DNA of 46,845 nt from Lautropia sp. (GTDB taxonomy: Bacteria > Pseudomonadota > Gammaproteobacteria > Burkholderiales > Burkholderiaceae_E), in the NCBI GenBank assembly GCA_030532895.1, contig JAUNKF010000029.1, forward strand, positions 1-46,845. The letters run 5' to 3'. The notes under the pieces were generated by a model. It saw nothing but the letters and a program-made list of their open reading frames with translations, searched no databases and was not told where the DNA came from. How positions within the stretch are numbered: position 1 is the first letter of the stretch; every line of letters begins with the position of its first letter. This document shows positions 4,290 to 13,097 of the stretch, one piece after another. Position numbers and translations under genes: made by a program.

Positions 4290-4316
4290 TGTAAGAAACG
4301 GGCCGCGTCCTCCGAC
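4290..4316 (+). promoter_or_regulatory. Candidate ECF-sigma promoter of the hvf operon
   Basis: TGTAAG at 4290-4295 and CGTCC at 4306-4310 (or CGACC at 4313-4317) resemble the two boxes of ECF-type promoters, which often have an AAC/AAG-type -35 box and a CGT-type -10 box. They lie about 80-100 bases before the precursor start, next to an A/T run (4271-4281). Assignment to the sigma factor encoded at 7655-8233 is inference. The rest of 3905-4392 holds a terminator, repeat copy A and no gene I recognise. Confidence 0.35.
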
Positions 4317-4392
4317 CAAAGGGGTAACGCAGCACGGAATGGCTGCGGGGTTTCACCAAATTCAATCACCAACTTCTTTTGGAGTCCTTTTG

Positions 4393-4695
4393 ATGAACAA
4401 GAAATTTGCTGCTCTGCTCTCGGGTGCCGTGGCTGCTGGTGCGCTGATCGGTTCGCCTGCTTTTGCTGCCGTCACGTTGGCTGACGGCTACCAGGTGGCT
4501 GCTGCCGACAAGGCCAAGGAAGGTAAATGCGGTGAGGGTAAGTGCGGTGCTGCCGAAGAGAAGGCTGCTGAAGGCAAGTGCGGCGCTGACAAGAGCAAGG
4601 ACGGCAAGTGCGGCGAAGGCAAGTGTGGCGCCGATGGCAAGAAAGCCGGCAAGGCCAAGGAAGGCAAGTGCGGCGAGGGCAAGTGCGGTAGCTGA
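4393..4695 (+). CDS. hvfA: HvfA-type RiPP metallophore precursor (EGKCG repeats)
   Basis: A 100-residue precursor with a Sec signal peptide (about residues 1-25, ending SPAFA) and a short spacer. It has seven [E/D]GKCG motifs at 43-47, 48-52, 60-64, 70-74, 75-79, 90-94 and 95-99. All seven cysteines sit in these motifs (46, 51, 63, 73, 78, 93, 98); the fourth motif is DGKCG. In the HvfA family, EGKCG cysteines are converted by the neighbouring MNIO enzyme to oxazolone/thioamide groups that bind copper. The start is ATG 4393, with GGAG at 4381-4384. The open frame extends upstream, but the signal peptide and ribosome site fix this start. The genes for the enzyme, partner and DoxX protein follow on the same strand. 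The copper role is inferred from the family. Confidence 0.88.
   Translation: MNKKFAALLSGAVAAGALIGSPAFAAVTLADGYQVAAADKAKEGKCGEGKCGAAEEKAAEGKCGADKSKDGKCGEGKCGADGKKAGKAKEGKCGEGKCGS
4519..4689 (+). repeat. Seven imperfect 15-bp repeats encoding [E/D]GKCG
   Basis: Imperfect copies of GAAGGCAAGTGCGGC, single or in tandem pairs, separated by Ala/Lys-rich spacers. Several are nearly identical at the DNA level, so the number of motifs may change by slippage or recombination. Confidence 0.85.
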
Positions 4696-4705
4696 TCCGC
4701 TTGAT

Positions 4706-4760
4706 GGCAAGTGTCCTGATCGTCTGGTCTGTGTGGTGTCGATCCGATTGGGCACTTGCC
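4706..4760 (+). promoter_or_regulatory. Large hairpin between hvfA and hvfB
   Basis: GGCAAGTGTCC (4706-4716) pairs with GGGCACTTGCC (4750-4760) over 11 pairs including one G-U. A second stem lies inside: GATCG (4718-4722) with CGATC (4740-4744). There is no T run. It lies 10 bases after the precursor stop codon, where it could protect the precursor mRNA end or reduce read-through so that precursor is made in excess over the enzymes. The structure is directly visible; the role is inference. Confidence 0.6.
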
Positions 4761-4879
4761 TCCAGGGTGATGGCGCCTGTTTGCATTTTTGCCATCTGCT
4801 TCTCCTCTTTTTTCATCGGGGCTGGATCCAGGTTTTTCCAGTCATCGCTTTGATGGCGTCATCCAGCCCGGTTTCAGAT

Positions 4880-4905
4880 ACGGGTAAGAACAACAAGATA
4901 CCCGT
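4880..4905 (+). promoter_or_regulatory. Inverted repeat just before hvfB
   Basis: ACGGGTA (4880-4886) and TACCCGT (4899-4905) are perfect reverse complements with a 12-base loop. They lie 20 bases before the hvfB ATG and touch its likely ribosome binding region. The repeat could limit hvfB translation or bind a regulator. Confidence 0.45.
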
Positions 4906-4925
4906 CACGGGTGGGTAATACGATC

Positions 4926-5849
4926 ATGAACAATCCTGACGCCAAACTGCTGCACCGGGCTGGACTTGGGTTGCGGCGTAGCCTGTTGCCAGATACCTTG
5001 AGCGCGCTGAAAGCGGGTGAGTTGGAGTCTGTAGCTTTCTTTGAAGTGGCGCCTGAAAACTGGAGTCGACTGGGTGGGAAGTTCTCGCGTGATTTGCGGG
5101 CCATCAGTGAGTTCCGCCCGCTGGCTTGTCATGGCCTGTCCCTCAATCTCGGTGGCTCGGATCCGTTGGACATGAGTCTGCTGGCCGAGGTCAAGGCTTT
5201 CATGCGCACCTATCGGATAGCGCTTTATACCGAACATCTGTCCTGGTGCGGCCACGAAGGGCATTTGTACGATCTGCTGCCTTTGCCTGCCACCTATGAA
5301 ACGGTACGTCATGTGGCTCGGCGGGTCGAGCAGGTTCAGGATTTCTTCGGCGAGCAGATTGGTATCGAAAATGCCAGTTACTATGCTGCGCCTGAAGGGG
5401 CCGAGATGGATGACGCCACTTTTGTGGCCTCGGTTGTGAAGGAGGCGGGCTGCCTGCTGCATCTTGATGTCAACAATGTTTACGTCAATAGCTGCAACCA
5501 TCAGTTCGATCCCTATCATTACATGCGTCAGTTGCCACTGGACAAAACCTGCTATTTGCACGTGGCCGGTCATCACGTCGAAGAGGATGGGCTGATCATC
5601 GACACGCATGGCATGCCGGTGATCGATCCGGTCTGGCAGTTGCTGGACTTCACCTATGACGAGCTGGCCGCGGCAGGGCTGGATCCTGTGGCGATTCCTT
5701 CTTGCCTGGAGCGTGATTTCAATTTCCCACCGTTGACGGAGCTGGCCGAAGAGGTGCGCATCATCGACCAGAAGCAGCGCGAAGCGTCTGCGCGCAGCGC
5801 GCAGAAGCGTTTGGCTGCTGCTGTCATTTCTCCCGCTTGTGCGCTGTGA
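4926..5849 (+). CDS. hvfB: HvfB-type MNIO enzyme (DUF692)
   Basis: A 307-residue TIM-barrel enzyme of the DUF692 family, the multinuclear non-heme iron oxidative enzymes that modify cysteines of ribosomal peptides. Family signatures appear in order: EVAPENW (40-46), HGLSLNLGG (69-77), EHLSW (103-107), IENASYY (147-153), HLDVNNVYVNSCNHQFDPY (179-197), YLHVAGH (210-216), DTHGMPVIDP (226-235) and ERDFNFPPL (262-270). These hold the His/Glu/Asp metal ligands of the family. The start is ATG 4926; an in-frame GTG at 4911 is possible but less likely. It has no signal peptide, so modification occurs in the cytoplasm before export. hvfC follows after eight bases. Its substrate is almost certainly the upstream EGKCG precursor. 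Confidence 0.9.
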   Translation: MNNPDAKLLHRAGLGLRRSLLPDTLSALKAGELESVAFFEVAPENWSRLGGKFSRDLRAISEFRPLACHGLSLNLGGSDPLDMSLLAEVKAFMRTYRIALYTEHLSWCGHEGHLYDLLPLPATYETVRHVARRVEQVQDFFGEQIGIENASYYAAPEGAEMDDATFVASVVKEAGCLLHLDVNNVYVNSCNHQFDPYHYMRQLPLDKTCYLHVAGHHVEEDGLIIDTHGMPVIDPVWQLLDFTYDELAAAGLDPVAIPSCLERDFNFPPLTELAEEVRIIDQKQREASARSAQKRLAAAVISPACAL

Positions 5850-5857
5850 GGGGGGGC

Positions 5858-6607
5858 ATGAACAACGAGGCTTCGCCATCTGCCGCTTTGGCGCAGATGC
5901 AGGGTGAGTGGGCCAGCTATTTGCGGGCGCCTCAGTCGGCACCCCAGCCGGCAGGTACGTCGGCGCGGCACATGGGGGCTTATGCGAGTTTGCTGCGCAA
6001 CAATATCGGCGGCTTCATCCACCAGTGCTTTCCCCTTTGCCGGCAATCGCTGCCGCAGGCCAGATGGGAGGCGTTGATCGATCGTTTCTTCGCGGAGTCG
6101 GTCTGGCACCACAGTCCGTTCTTCCATGAAATCCCGAAGGCTTTCGTGGCTTTTCTGGGGGGCTGTACGCCACACCCCGACCTGCCACCGTGGTTTGGCG
6201 CGCTGGCCCACTATGAGTGGGTGGAGCTCGCCGTGGATACGGCGCCTGATGTGCCACCGCAGTTTGGCCCCCAAGGGTTGGCCGTGAACCCGTCCTGTCA
6301 GCTGGAGGCGTATGAGTGGCCCGTTCATACGATCACACCGGATTCGGTTGAGGTGCCTGAGCAGCCAACCTTCGTGGCGGTGTTCCGCAACCGGCAGCAT
6401 CAGGTGCGTTTCAGTGTGCTGACGCCAGCTGCGGCGCAGTTGCTGCACCTGCTGAAAAGCAACGGATGTGACTGGTTGGCAGCCCAGCAGTCCCTGGCCG
6501 AGGCTTTTCAGTTGAGTCTGGATGTCCTTCAGACCCAGACGGATGGCTTGTGTGATCAGTGGTTGGCCGATGAGCTGTTGCGGAAACAATCCCCGGCTAT
6601 TTGCTGA
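5858..6607 (+). CDS. hvfC: HvfC-type RiPP maturation partner (DUF2063)
   Basis: A 249-residue protein with the DUF2063 N-terminal helical domain (about 10-105; markers MGAYASLLRNNIGGFIHQCFPLC and FFHEIPKAFVAFL) and a C-terminal beta/helix domain (about 110-245) with the mid-protein motif ALAHYEWVELA. In MNIO operons the DUF2063 protein acts with the DUF692 enzyme and probably presents the leader part of the precursor. ATG 5858 follows a GAGGGGGGG ribosome site; an in-frame GTG at 5837 overlapping hvfB is less likely. The family call is strong and the mechanism is known only from relatives. Confidence 0.85.
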   Translation: MNNEASPSAALAQMQGEWASYLRAPQSAPQPAGTSARHMGAYASLLRNNIGGFIHQCFPLCRQSLPQARWEALIDRFFAESVWHHSPFFHEIPKAFVAFLGGCTPHPDLPPWFGALAHYEWVELAVDTAPDVPPQFGPQGLAVNPSCQLEAYEWPVHTITPDSVEVPEQPTFVAVFRNRQHQVRFSVLTPAAAQLLHLLKSNGCDWLAAQQSLAEAFQLSLDVLQTQTDGLCDQWLADELLRKQSPAIC

Positions 6608-6638
6608 CAACCCTTTTTCGAGGTTTTCGAGGATCGTG

Positions 6639-7145
6639 ATGAATCGTGTTGGTGACCGGTTGTGTGCCTTGCGTGCCATGCTGACTGCTGCGGCACCTTG
6701 GGTTGCGCTGCTTTTTCTGCGAGTGCTGGTTGGTTGGGAGTTTCTGGAGGCTGGGCTTGAGAAGCTTGGCGGCGAAAACTGGTTCGACAGCATTCAGGAC
6801 AAATTCATTTTCCCGTTCAATCTGCTGCCGGTTGATGTCAGCTGGTCGATGGCGATGTGGTTCGAGATCGTGGGGGGCATCGCGCTGATTCTGGGGGTGG
6901 GTACCCGCTTTTTTGCGCTGAGTCTGCTGGTGCTGACGGTGGTGGCGACGGCTGCTGTCCATCTGCCGGATCAGTGGAGCACTTTGGCCGAGCTGTGGCG
7001 CGGTTATGTGATCAGCAACAAGGGGCATGGCAACTTCAAGCTGCCGTTGATTTTCATGACAATGCTTTGGCCCCTGATGTTCTATGGGCCGGGGCGTCTG
7101 AGTATCGATGGGCTGATCCACGGGTTGCTCTCTCGCCAGCGTTGA
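6639..7145 (+). CDS. hvfD: DoxX family membrane protein, HvfD-type
   Basis: A 168-residue protein with four predicted membrane segments (about 15-35, 65-90, 90-110, 128-150) and the DoxX features FLRVLVGWEFLEAGLEKL and MWFEIVGGIALILGVGTRFFA. ATG 6639 has GAGGA at 6629-6633. DoxX proteins are the usual last gene of Hvf and Gig-type operons, with a suspected role in the redox or export side of the system. The function is not settled. A possible terminator follows at 7165. Confidence 0.82.
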   Translation: MNRVGDRLCALRAMLTAAAPWVALLFLRVLVGWEFLEAGLEKLGGENWFDSIQDKFIFPFNLLPVDVSWSMAMWFEIVGGIALILGVGTRFFALSLLVLTVVATAAVHLPDQWSTLAELWRGYVISNKGHGNFKLPLIFMTMLWPLMFYGPGRLSIDGLIHGLLSRQR

Positions 7146-7362: not shown

Positions 7363-7653
7363 TCAGCGGGGGGCGTTGCCCTGATGGGCACCGTCATCGG
7401 CGGTATCGGTATCCGCGCCGGCACTGGCCGTATGGGAAGCGGGCGGAAAAAGTCCTGAGGACGAAGACGAGGCATCACCGTTGGCGTAGTGCTGCATGAT
7501 TCGGCGCAGGGCAGCCGAATTTTTTCTGAAATTCCGACAGTCTGCGCAGGCCAGCAGGTGCAGGCGCATGGTCAGGCGCGCCCACAGTGGCAGATCGGCA
7601 TCCTGATCCATCGAGACGAGCTGGGTGGTACGAAGGCACTTCTGGTTTTTCAT
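7363..7653 (-). CDS. Zinc-type anti-sigma factor (zf-HC2-like)
   Basis: A 96-residue protein with the HxxxCxxC motif of zinc-binding anti-sigma factors (His32, Cys36, Cys39 in HLLACADC) in a short helical N-terminal part. A Ser/Ala/Asp-rich, probably disordered tail follows. There is no membrane segment, so it is a soluble sensor. It starts one base after the stop of the ECF sigma gene, as expected for a co-expressed sigma/anti-sigma pair. Similar pairs control MNIO/bufferin genes in Neisseria and Cupriavidus relatives. The signal is unknown; redox or metal sensing through the Cys residues is plausible. Confidence 0.78.
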   Translation of the reverse strand: MKNQKCLRTTQLVSMDQDADLPLWARLTMRLHLLACADCRNFRKNSAALRRIMQHYANGDASSSSSGLFPPASHTASAGADTDTADDGAHQGNAPR

Positions 7654-7654
7654 G

Positions 7655-8233
7655 TCACTGAACCCCGATCGCTCCGTCCAGCCAGTTTTGCTGGAGACAC
7701 TTCTGCAACTTCAGTCGGGCACGATATAAACACACGTTCATGTTACTGGTGCTGAGGCGCGTTTGCTCGCAAATCTCCTTGCCACTCAGTCCCAGATATT
7801 CTCGCATCAAAAACACCTGTGCCTGCTGTCCCGGCAGGTTGTCGAGGCAGCGTTGAAAAACCTGCCAGAAAGCCTGGCTGTGGGCATGTTGTTCCGGCGT
7901 GCCGAGGTCGCTGGGGGCTGTCCCTGTCGCCCAATGCCCGTTCGCCTGAAAGAGTTCTTCGATCAGCATGTCCCCATCGGGGTCGTCATCCAGCGGCACT
8001 TCGTGCTGGTCTCGCCGATAGCGTCCCCGCAAGGCGTCGGCGATCTTGTTTTTCAGGATGGCGAATACCCAGGTTTTGAGGGCCGACTCGGCGCGGAAGG
8101 CTTCGGCTCGATCCAGGGCTGCCAGCAGGGCGTCCTGAACCACATCCTCGGCCACATCGTTATCGCCCAGTTGTTTGCTGGCATAGGACAGCATCTGGGG
8201 CCGGAAACTGGCCAGTTGTTGTGAAATGCTCAT
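7655..8233 (-). CDS. ECF-family RNA polymerase sigma factor
   Basis: A 192-residue sigma-70 family protein with region 2 at about 8-75 (DVAEDVVQDALLAAL, then ESALKTWVFAILKNKIAD) and region 4 at about 130-180 (LPGQQAQVFLMREYLGLSGKEIC, then the recognition helix TRLSTSNMNVCLYRARLKLQKCL). It lacks regions 1 and 3, as ECF factors do. It lies first in a two-gene operon with the anti-sigma factor, converging on the hvf operon. By analogy with Neisseria Ecf, Cupriavidus RpoQ and Caulobacter SigF, all linked to DUF692 operons, it probably activates hvfABCD. That target is inference. Confidence 0.85.
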   Translation of the reverse strand: MSISQQLASFRPQMLSYASKQLGDNDVAEDVVQDALLAALDRAEAFRAESALKTWVFAILKNKIADALRGRYRRDQHEVPLDDDPDGDMLIEELFQANGHWATGTAPSDLGTPEQHAHSQAFWQVFQRCLDNLPGQQAQVFLMREYLGLSGKEICEQTRLSTSNMNVCLYRARLKLQKCLQQNWLDGAIGVQ

Positions 8234-8625: not shown

Positions 8626-10104
8626 ATGCAAGCTTTTGAGATTCGTCCGGCCACCGAGGCCGATCTGCCCGCCATGCTGGCGATCTTCAACGACCTGGTA
8701 CTGCACTCGGATGCGGTGTATACCGAGGTGCCGGCCACGTTCGAGGAACGGCGTGCGTGGTTTCAATCACGAACCGGGGCGGGCTTTCCGGTGCTGGTGG
8801 CCGATCGGGACGGTGAGGTGCTTGGTGTGGCTTCCTTTGGGCCTTTCCGGGATGCCTGGCCGGGATATCGTCACACGGTCGAGCACAGCGTGCATGTGAG
8901 GCGGGATCAGTATCGGCAGGGGGTAGGGCGCGCGCTGATGGAGGCGTTGCTGCAGGCGGCCCGCCAGCGTTCCTTGCACATGATGATCGGCGTGGTTGAC
9001 GCAGCCAATGTCGGCTCGCTTCGCTTGCATGAGCAGCTGGGGTTCCGGCGGGTTGGCCATTTGCCACAAGTGGGCTGGAAGGCCGGTCGCTGGCTGGATG
9101 TCGTGTTGGTGCAGCGCCCTCTGCAGGCCCTGGAGGCTTCGACGGCGTCCGGGCTTCCCGCGGCGGAAGGCGAGGCAGGGCTGTTTGAGACGATGGCCGG
9201 GGGGCAGGATGTGGCCTCCAAGCCGGAGGGCGTGTCGGCGACAGCGCAAGGTGTCAGCTCTGCTGTTCATGTGTCGCCCCGTGCTGTGGTGTCGCGGTCT
9301 CGGCACACCAGGCTCGGGGCTTTGCATCTGAAGTACTGGCCGGCGCCGTCCGGCGCATCCCGGTGGCCGACCGTGGTGCTGTTTCATGGTTTGTTCGGTG
9401 ATAGCGATGTTTGGGCTGCCACCGCCTTGAACCTGAACCGGGCGGGGTTGAACGTGCTGGCTGTCGATCTGCCCGGACACGGTGCCAGTCAGGTGAGTGC
9501 CACGACGATGGCTGCCGTGGTCGAGAGCGTCAAAGAGGCGTTGCTGGCAGAAGCCTGGCCTTCGCTCGTGCTGGTCGGGCATTCGTTTGGCGCGGTGGTG
9601 GCAACACGGTTGGCGGCCGATGCCGATCTCCCGGTGGCTGGGCTGGCGTTGTTGTCGCCGGCCGGCATGGGGCGGGAAGTCAACAGCACATTTCTGGAGG
9701 CGGTGATGGCGGCCACGGATGAGAAGATGTTGGCCGATGCCTTGTCCTATGTGACGGTCAAGCACCAGCGTGCATCCAGCCACTATTTGCGCCAGATGTT
9801 GACGCGCATCGAGGCGGCCAAGGTTCAGCTTCGAGCCTTGATCGACGAGGCCGTGGGGCCGGATGACGGCTTGCAGCAAAACTCGATTCGTGAGGTGTTG
9901 CCGAGCTTGCACTGTCCGGTTGTCATCATCCAGGGGCGGGAAGATGGCGTGATGCCCTGGCGGCATGTCTTGAATGCCCCGTCGCAGGTGGGGCTGCACC
10001 TGTTGTCGGATGTGGGGCACATGCCGCACTGGGAGGCGACCGCGTTGACGCAGCGCATCCTGTTGCAGCTGATCAGGGGGATCGGACAGTCACCAGCCTG
10101 CTAA
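8626..10104 (+). CDS. Fusion of GNAT acetyltransferase and alpha/beta hydrolase
   Basis: A 492-residue two-domain protein. Residues 1-165 form a GNAT N-acetyltransferase of the phosphinothricin-acetyltransferase type (FEIRPATEADLPAMLAIFND at the start, acetyl-CoA loop RQGVGR at 97-102, NVGSLRLHEQLGF at 128-140). After a low-complexity linker (about 168-225), residues 230-485 form an alpha/beta hydrolase. Its oxyanion motif HGLFGDS is at 254-260, nucleophile Ser320 is in GHSFG, and Asp440 and His465 (VGHMPHW) complete the triad. The hydrolase half resembles the C-terminal domain of AcoC-type proteins, but no lipoyl domain is present. Both active sites look intact. The stop codon overlaps repeat copy B. 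Substrates are unknown. Confidence 0.8.
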   Translation: MQAFEIRPATEADLPAMLAIFNDLVLHSDAVYTEVPATFEERRAWFQSRTGAGFPVLVADRDGEVLGVASFGPFRDAWPGYRHTVEHSVHVRRDQYRQGVGRALMEALLQAARQRSLHMMIGVVDAANVGSLRLHEQLGFRRVGHLPQVGWKAGRWLDVVLVQRPLQALEASTASGLPAAEGEAGLFETMAGGQDVASKPEGVSATAQGVSSAVHVSPRAVVSRSRHTRLGALHLKYWPAPSGASRWPTVVLFHGLFGDSDVWAATALNLNRAGLNVLAVDLPGHGASQVSATTMAAVVESVKEALLAEAWPSLVLVGHSFGAVVATRLAADADLPVAGLALLSPAGMGREVNSTFLEAVMAATDEKMLADALSYVTVKHQRASSHYLRQMLTRIEAAKVQLRALIDEAVGPDDGLQQNSIREVLPSLHCPVVIIQGREDGVMPWRHVLNAPSQVGLHLLSDVGHMPHWEATALTQRILLQLIRGIGQSPAC

Positions 10105-12056: not shown

Positions 12057-12527
12057 GGTGGGTGTCTCCTGTGTCAGCGCGCGTGGTGGCATCCTGCGTC
12101 CTTTGCGCTGTCTTGGCCTCGGCTGGTTGAGCCGCCACCGTGGGACGCTCAACCACGTGTTGGCAAGGCCAAGGGTTGTGTGTTTTATGCGGAAAGACCG
12201 GACGATGTTGGCGTGGTGGTGGACGGCTGGATGTTGCGTTGCGAAAACCGCGGCGCCGTCATCCCGGATCTTTGTTCAAAGATAGCATGCAGTGCTCTTC
12301 TGCGGAAACGATATCCCCGGTGCGCCACCCATGCGGATGTTTCCCAACCCTTGTCTGAGGGTTGTTCTGTGGGGTTGATGAACAAAACATGAATGAATGA
12401 GCCACCGAATCATCTGGGTAAAGCCGGTGGCAATCGATGATTCTGTTATGCTGCGTTGACAGTATTTTTCAGTGAAGGGCAGCAGGGTTTTCCTGATGCC
12501 GATGGTTTTTTGAGGAGAAGTGGCCCC
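12057..12527. other. Divergent intergenic region between prpE and the carbonic-anhydrase-like gene
   Basis: No gene is recognised. An extended -10-like sequence, TGTTATGCT at 12444-12452, points toward the forward gene but has no clear -35 box. GAGGAGAAG at 12512-12520 is the ribosome site of the forward gene and settles its start at 12528. Confidence 0.4.
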
Positions 12528-13097
12528 ATGTCCCAGTCATGCTGTGATCGATCAGAAGTGTCCCACGCCGTCGAGGAGTCGGTATCGGTGCGTCGCCAGT
12601 TCGTCAAACTGGGCATGTTGGCCGGCGGTGCCAGCCTCTTGGGGCTGAGCATGCCGAGCGCACAAGCCGCGGGCGAAACCGAAGCCTTGTTGCTGAGCTG
12701 CATGGATTTCCGCTTGATGAATGAGATCGAGCACTACATGAATGCGCGTGGTTTGCGTGACAAGTACGATCATGTGGTGCTGGCAGGCGCATCGCTGGGG
12801 GCGGTGACGGATCAGTTTCCGGCCTGGAACAAGACCTTCTGGGATCACGTCGACATCGCGAAGAAGCTGCACCACATCAAGAAGGTCATCGTGATCGACC
12901 ATCGTGATTGCGGTGCCTACAAGGTGGTGCTGGGTGAAGACAGCGTCAAGACCGAAAAGCTCGAAACCGAGGCACACGTCGCGCAGCTGGGTAAATTGCG
13001 CAGCATGCTGAAGGCACGCCATCCGGAGCTGGAGGTGGAAACGCTGCTGATGTCGCTGGATGGCCAGGTCGAGCCGGTCGAAGTTGGCGTCAGTTGA
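12528..13097 (+). CDS. Tat-exported beta-carbonic-anhydrase-like protein
   Basis: A 189-residue protein. The N-terminus carries a twin-arginine signal (VRRQFVKLG at 21-29, hydrophobic stretch, cleavage near AQA at 45-47). The mature part has the beta-carbonic anhydrase zinc and active-site motifs CMDFR (Cys58, Asp60, Arg62) and HRDCGAY (His125, Cys128). The mature domain of about 140 residues is shorter than most beta-class enzymes. Tat export suggests folding, perhaps with zinc, before transport. CO2 hydration is plausible but unproven. The gene converges on the pirin gene with a 24-base gap. Confidence 0.75.
   Translation: MSQSCCDRSEVSHAVEESVSVRRQFVKLGMLAGGASLLGLSMPSAQAAGETEALLLSCMDFRLMNEIEHYMNARGLRDKYDHVVLAGASLGAVTDQFPAWNKTFWDHVDIAKKLHHIKKVIVIDHRDCGAYKVVLGEDSVKTEKLETEAHVAQLGKLRSMLKARHPELEVETLLMSLDGQVEPVEVGVS

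Follow-up and report, generated by a model that had tools for sequence, protein, structure and literature searches.

The hvf locus and its precursor peptide

We analysed a stretch of 46,845 nucleotides from Lautropia sp. (the window), in which four genes, hvfA-hvfB-hvfC-hvfX, all on the + strand, could be read directly from the sequence within positions 4393-7145, separated by spacers of 230, 8 and 31 bases. The first is an hvfA-type precursor gene (4393..4695) with an ATG start, GGAG upstream, and a product of 100 amino acids that opens with a Sec-like signal peptide, MNKKFAALLSGAVAAGALIGSPAFA^A, as judged by eye. The precursor contains exactly seven cysteines, every one inside an [E/D]GKCG motif, arranged as pair, single, pair, pair. 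The three pairs are EGKCGEGKCG at 4519..4547, DGKCGEGKCG at 4600..4628, with Asp in its first motif, and EGKCGEGKCG at 4660..4688, all on the + strand. The NCBIfam model KCGExKCG_twice matches the precursor in four stretches (3.8e-23), and a repeat of this kind is very unlikely to arise by chance. A preliminary description of the locus had reported a secreted 100-residue precursor with seven such motifs and no other cysteine, the same arrangement with DGKCG in fourth place, and DUF692, DUF2063 and DoxX genes downstream on one strand; direct reading and domain matches bear out each of these statements.

The second gene, hvfB (4926..5849, +, with an alternative GTG start open at 4911), encodes a DUF692/MNIO protein, a predicted 5-thiooxazole-forming maturase, which matches PF05114 with 303.4 bits and is the single match to that family in the window's own genome. 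It is followed by hvfC (5858..6607, +), encoding a DUF2063/PME1 partner protein with DUF2063 and NGO1945_C domains (PF09836 and PF22106), and by hvfX (6639..7145, +), encoding a DoxX-family protein (PF07681, 77.6 bits). The name HvfABCD had been used for this gene set; the DoxX gene is instead called HvfX (NF050144; PMC13419390; here and below, the literature is cited from parts of the papers concerned). The four-gene set is also present in four of the eight other genomes of the genus searched.

Convergent with the hvf operon, on the - strand, lie genes for a zinc anti-sigma factor of the ZAS type (7363..7653; NF052368, 50.8 bits, cut-off 50; HLLACADC) and for an extracytoplasmic function (ECF) sigma factor of the TIGR02943 family (7655..8233; 223.7 bits, cut-off 162.2). 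Alignment also revealed an ECF-type promoter-like element, TGTAAG-N17-CGACCA (4290..4318, +), upstream of hvfA. The operon had thus been described with its gene set correct, and with the adjacent sigma/anti-sigma pair and the promoter-like element left out. We also asked whether the 230 bases that separate hvfA from hvfB hold a terminator or a conserved RNA element. The gap contains two inverted repeats, but its fold is unexceptional (z -1.34; 20 of 200 shuffles did as well), and we rejected this candidate; the gap is poorly kept in the genus, with 10 of 290 columns invariant across five sequences.

Assignment to the Lys-Cys branch and predicted chemistry

The locus is an ordinary captophorin locus of the known Lys-Cys (EGKCG) branch, together with oxazolin and fontiphorin, and there are good descriptions of such gene sets in the literature. 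Three of its products score above the cut-offs of the corresponding families: hvfB for the NCBIfam HvfB family (362.1 bits, cut-off 360), hvfC for NF050145 (206 bits, cut-off 142) and hvfX for NF050144 (136.8 bits, cut-off 80). The precursor likewise passes the HvfA-family metallophore domain NF050137 (80.8 bits, cut-off 19.5). Among solved chains, 3BWW (2.2e-69) is nearest in sequence to the hvfB product; it is a Histophilus MNIO regarded as part of a locus for a ribosomally synthesized and post-translationally modified peptide. The methanobactin enzyme MbnB (MbnABC) is distant, with 32 of the 325 bits of its equivalog TIGR04159. Two scores count against the assignment: the HvfB cut-off is exceeded only narrowly, and the precursor falls short of the HvfA equivalog NF050188 (46.9 bits, cut-off 95). 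Because of the latter, we file the precursor under the EGKCG/Lys-Cys branch and not as HvfA itself.

We next placed the hvfB product on a tree of 101 MNIO rows. A 100/100 branch divides this tree. All 71 EGKCG-labelled rows, including the window, fall on one side with the 15 rows in which no precursor was found. On the other side are 15 rows, of which seven are Buf1-linked, three Buf2-linked and five unlabelled, the Buf1 and Buf2 labels having been assigned by eye from cysteine-rich open reading frames (ORFs) adjoining the enzyme. Inside the EGKCG side, the stem leading to the window's genus is long, at 1.18 changes per column. Eight of 23 distant loci (L008-L030), with weak, partial or very long ORFs, are absent from the tree. 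A phylogeny of the DUF692 protein against HvfB, BufB1 and GigA had been proposed as a check. The window's enzyme groups with EGKCG-linked enzymes and away from bufferin-linked ones, on a tree whose reference rows are labelled genome loci other than Haemophilus HvfB, Caulobacter BufB1 and Cupriavidus GigA. Among the distant loci, MNIO matches in two genomes of the same family (L019 1210-3354 and L020 1057-3066) lie within ORFs of ~700 amino acids, which are possible fusion proteins and adjoin small, cysteine-containing, precursor-like ORFs.

Gene order, profile matches and the tree together support the earlier identification of an Hvf-type copper-peptide operon. The broader label "Hvf/bufferin-type" holds for its EGKCG/oxazolin half only. 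An operon for a bufferin in the narrow sense (Buf1 or Buf2 type) would share the four-gene layout, with MNIO, DUF2063 and DoxX genes and a secreted precursor (PMC12452194), as well as the MNIO superfamily. However, the hvfB product scores 239.4 bits against the BufB equivalog cut-off of 310, its MNIO stands apart from the Buf1- and Buf2-linked clades, and the precursor is of the EGKCG type, in contrast to the DUF2282 or 6/12-Cys precursors of bufferins (PMC12452194). The precursor matches no Pfam family at E 0.001, and hence no DUF2282. With tree and precursor type both disfavouring it, we regard a bufferin operon as extremely improbable.

Of the characterized systems, oxazolin (HvfABCX of Haemophilus influenzae) resembles the window in its four genes, with a signal-bearing precursor carrying tandem EGKCG, an HvfB-family MNIO, HvfC and a DoxX-like protein. 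In H. influenzae an ECF factor and a ZAS anti-sigma control the homologous operon, and the window has ECF and ZAS genes. The two differ in that oxazolin has six modified cysteines in three AEGKCGEGKCG units (PMC13419390), whereas the window's precursor has seven cysteines, one lone motif and one Asp and falls short of the HvfA equivalog score, and in that the ECF and anti-sigma genes adjoin the operon in the window. Fontiphorin (FonABC of Fontimonas thermophila, a captophorin of the Lys-Cys group) shares the number of sites, seven, which are modified in FonA (PMC13097082), and the MNIO specificity residues, matched by motif and not by FonA/FonB alignment; unlike the window's precursor, FonA has an EAKCG motif (PMC13097082). 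Bulbicupramide (MmrABC of Microbulbifer) has EGKCG repeats with five to eight cysteines, an MNIO and a DUF2063 protein, and differs in that its expression and copper role are uncertain. Bufferins 1 and 2 carry thiooxazole and bind copper (PMC12452194). With >24,000 MNIO-PME1 loci reported, the window's locus is one more member of a large class.

The cysteines of the precursor are probably turned into copper-binding rings, as judged from homology. An oxazolone/thioamide product had been expected. That chemistry is out of date, since the structure of oxazolin has been revised to 5-thiooxazole (PMC13097082, PMC13419390), and the expected product here is therefore 5-thiooxazole. This ring occurs in fontiphorin, oxazolin and gonophorin, with copper bound and with DGKCG processed (PMC13097082). 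Enzyme residues are consistent with the assignment. FonB R15, R16, D249 and F250 bear on substrate choice and catalysis (PMC13097082), and their counterparts by motif in the window are R17, R18, D264 and F265. Using a simple pattern, we found this RR/DF signature in the window, in 63 of the 70 other EGKCG-labelled rows, in 14 of the 15 rows with no precursor found, and in none of the 15 Buf1, Buf2 and unlabelled rows; the seven EGKCG rows without it comprise three unread at one site, two with GL/DF (probably misread) and two with RR/DY. HvfB N175, D242 and H244 are each essential for activity. Through the 3BWW alignment they correspond to N183, D226 and H228 in the window, which are invariant across six aligned sequences; for D242 and H244 we infer a one-residue numbering shift between 3BWW and HvfB.

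By homology, HvfC would present the precursor to HvfB, and the signal region would act as the leader, which is its reported role in HvfA. Using O2 and a mixed Fe(II)/Fe(III) centre, HvfB would then convert up to seven Lys-Cys-Gly cysteines to 5-thiooxazoles, and the peptide, exported by Sec, would bind periplasmic copper and so damp copper toxicity, while HvfX may assist in the membrane. Two published observations weigh against parts of this scheme. Copper protection by EGKCG peptides is disputed: Microbulbifer MmrA-C were undetected under copper, with slight protection only in E. coli. In addition, FonBC left a short single-repeat FonA peptide unmodified in vitro (PMC13097082), so the lone third motif of the window's precursor may stay unmodified.

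The tandem motif pair

We compared the motifs with those of 80 named genome loci among the matches listed. The motif filter found a precursor at 65 of these, and the other 15 were excluded from motif counts. The 65 precursors contain EGKCG 230 times, DGKCG 47 times, EAKCG 43 times and EGSCG 42 times. The idea that DGKCG is a rare variant was therefore rejected; it is the second commonest motif. It had also been singled out as a special natural test of enzyme tolerance. A DGKCG substrate is already fully modified by FonBC in vitro (PMC13097082), which answers that test in principle.

Where the Asp motif stands does matter. Of the 124 runs of exactly two motifs in these 65 precursors, 40 carry Asp in their first motif and none carries it in the second. 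For all adjacent motifs, Asp comes first in 23 of the 65 precursors and second in 0/65, a count that includes the 11 runs of three or four motifs excluded from the two-motif count. An order-wide DNA-pattern search of 399 genomes found 95 pairs in 55 of them, counting the three in the window itself and overlapping pairs from longer runs; Asp was first in 38 of the 95 (28 genomes, 13 family codes) and second in 0/95. In a class-wide sample, a pair was present in 90 of 369 genomes, among the matches listed, and Asp in the second motif in 0/369. These pairs should not be read as so many independent events. In a quick MNIO tree built from 71 rows, of which 64 have pairs, the Asp-first trait requires at least eight changes, counted without the seven rows that lack an adjacent pair. 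Third-place Ser is similarly uneven, occurring in 64 of 176 lone motifs, 6 of 124 first-of-pair motifs and 0 of 124 second-of-pair motifs in the 65 precursors.

In the samples searched, the sequences follow the rule that the tandem pair [E/D]-G-K-C-G-E-G-K-C-G forms a conserved unit, the first acid being Glu or Asp and the Glu between the cysteines being fixed. We lean slightly towards the view that the pair is the unit of selection, with the middle Glu held fixed class-wide while the first acid drifts freely between Glu and Asp. If so, the middle Glu would have a job of its own, for example moving the enzyme on from the first cysteine to the second; alternatively, it may help two thiooxazoles to hold one copper. 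Among FonA variants, E1A is tolerated and E6A impaired (PMC13097082). The pair rule echoes this behaviour by analogy, and the impaired E6A hints at enzyme repositioning by the middle Glu. A further variant tells against a simple enzyme-based reading of the rule: the naming of one fully modified by FonBC implies DGKCG in both repeats (PMC13097082), and the fixed second Glu is thus not explained by simple inability of the enzyme. We found no statement of the pair rule in the parts consulted of PMC13097082. The rule is simple and directly testable with existing FonBC or HvfBC assays, and is a modest addition beyond the original finding.

Within the genus, the precursors of the four other hvf loci comprise one of the EGKCG type and three of mixed EGSCG/EGKCG type. 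The precursor of a sister species (G006) has EGKCG motifs only. Those of G001 and G002 carry four lone EGSCG/ESSCG motifs and end in a single EGKCGEGKCG pair, and that of G007 has four EGSCG motifs and a terminal EGRCGEGKCG; the precursors with lone EGSCG/ESSCG motifs and one terminal EG[K/R]CGEGKCG pair lie at L032 7245-7604, L033 6316-6729 and L034 6111-6458. They offer a better test of substrate tolerance than DGKCG. No paper title found by a literature search for EGSCG names EGSCG peptides.

The adjacent sigma factor and neighbouring genes

The anti-sigma factor encoded beside the operon has the arrangement C6-X25-H32-X3-C36-X2-C39, as counted in the translation, and thus falls within the ZAS definition C/H-X23-26-H-X3-C-X2-C; HxxxCxxC is present in 9/9 anti-sigma relatives adjoining the listed named loci. 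The sigma factor gave no match with PADLOC. We observed an ECF ortholog in all five genomes of the genus that have hvfB, the window's own included, although in G002 it lies on another contig. Of the four genomes of the genus without an hvfB match, three (80-88% complete) yielded no ECF gene and one contained two adjoining fragments with stops, an ECF sigma relic (G008:C3:35557-35980).

Upstream of hvfA, TGTAA-N17/18-CGAC[C/A]A (CGTAA in one locus) precedes the gene in 5/5 hvf loci of the genus, own included, as judged by eye in the alignment. We then asked for such elements in the 65 listed loci with a precursor, counting as ECF-linked those with a phmmer match at E <1e-10 (13 of the 80 listed loci, 12 of them with a precursor); nine further loci with a match up to 1e-5 (22/80 in total) were counted as not linked. 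The first, genus-derived pattern, TGTAA-N15-20-CGA[CTA], occurred at 7/12 ECF-linked and 7/53 other loci (reversed control, 0/12 and 3/53; reverse complement, 0/12 and 8/53). A broadened pattern, TGTAA-N16-19-CG[AT]C, present in 4/5 loci of the genus (the fifth having CGTAA), occurred before hvfA at 11/12 ECF-linked loci as compared to 6/53 others (Fisher 1.5e-7; reversed control, 0/12 and 2/53, the reverse complement not being among its controls). GTAA-N16-19-CGNC gave 11/12 and 8/53 (reversed control, 2/12 and 9/53), and the remaining four of the seven patterns showed no link to ECF-linked loci.

In its broadened form, the promoter-like element is associated with ECF-linked hvf loci. Control of hvfA by the ECF factor is suggested by this association. 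Some points detract from it: the motif was broadened after the data had been seen, seven patterns having been tried; the ECF-linked loci are mutually related, and the Fisher value is not corrected for kinship; and TGTAA-N17-19-CGACCA in the window's own genome has two matches versus six in the reversed control. Within the window the element gives two matches versus two in the control, which is not significant. A regulon beyond hvf in this genome was considered and rejected, since matches do not exceed the control; the other match, antisense to an ORF that we take to be electron-transfer-flavoprotein-like, looks like chance.

Similar arrangements are described elsewhere. In H. influenzae, the homologous doxX (hvf) operon is driven under hypochlorous acid (HOCl) by RpoE2, whose anti-sigma, HrsE, is of the ZAS type, and in Neisseria the sigma-E operon includes a doxX gene. 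The Neisseria sigma-E/MseR and Haemophilus RpoE2/HrsE pairs, in each of which an ECF sigma factor and its small ZAS anti-sigma govern a homologous doxX operon, resemble the window's TIGR02943 factor and its partner in type. Caulobacter sigma-F controls bufferin-type genes through the motif GTAACC-N16-CGAA. Sigma/NrsF genes accompany Buf1 but not Buf2 clusters (PMC12452194), and the parts consulted of that paper make no mention of ECF genes for EGKCG clusters. In the scheme that we propose, the zinc anti-sigma would lose its zinc or be oxidised by oxidants or thiol-reactive metals, and the freed ECF factor would transcribe hvfABCX from the TGTAA-N18-CGACCA element. Taken together, we consider it very probable that the locus is a captophorin biosynthetic operon of the oxazolin/fontiphorin type, presumably under an adjacent redox-responsive ECF sigma factor. 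An ECF/ZAS pair with EGKCG-type operons in further Pseudomonadota is a testable regulatory link, and a modest addition.

The nature of the regulator also bears on what the operon is for. It is possible, though we doubt it, that this is mainly an oxidative- or chlorine-stress system in which the thiooxazole peptide and DoxX scavenge oxidants or protect periplasmic thiols, with copper secondary. The adjoining ECF/ZAS pair, of the type that activates the H. influenzae operon under HOCl, points that way, as does the weak copper protection by the Microbulbifer homolog. By contrast, 5-thiooxazole peptides of the EGKCG branch bind copper (PMC13097082), and ECF systems beside MNIO genes may sense thiol-reactive metals, Caulobacter sigma-F/NrsF responding to chromium and cadmium.

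Upstream of the captophorin operon, on the same strand, lies a gene for a galactose-oxidase-like copper radical oxidase (659-2491, +), with a lipobox-like N-terminus and a score of 139.3 of 800 bits with the GlxA model; we take C181, Y237, Y460, H461 and H549, picked by motif, to be its candidate ligands. This gene order is kept in three of the four other hvf loci of the genus, as would be expected if hvf were a dedicated module loading or limiting copper for the oxidase. However, we found no oxidase match within 14 kb of sequence surrounding the hvf locus of G002 and an oxidase match at 0/80 listed named hvf loci (up to 5 kb on each side), a separate OmpA-like gene stands between oxidase and hvf, and ordinary local synteny accounts for the neighbourhood. 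Copper delivery to the oxidase is thus very unlikely.

Two further genes lie beyond the sigma factor. At 8626-10104 (+), one ORF fuses a GNAT acetyltransferase to an alpha/beta hydrolase, the GNAT part resembling ArsN1/phosphinothricin acetyltransferases below their cut-offs; the match is almost full-length in G006, and in G001 there are two separate overlapping matches. The gene at 12456-13097 (+) encodes a putative protein of the carbonic-anhydrase kind, in which a long N-terminal extension precedes the Pro_CA_2 match (residues 77-208).

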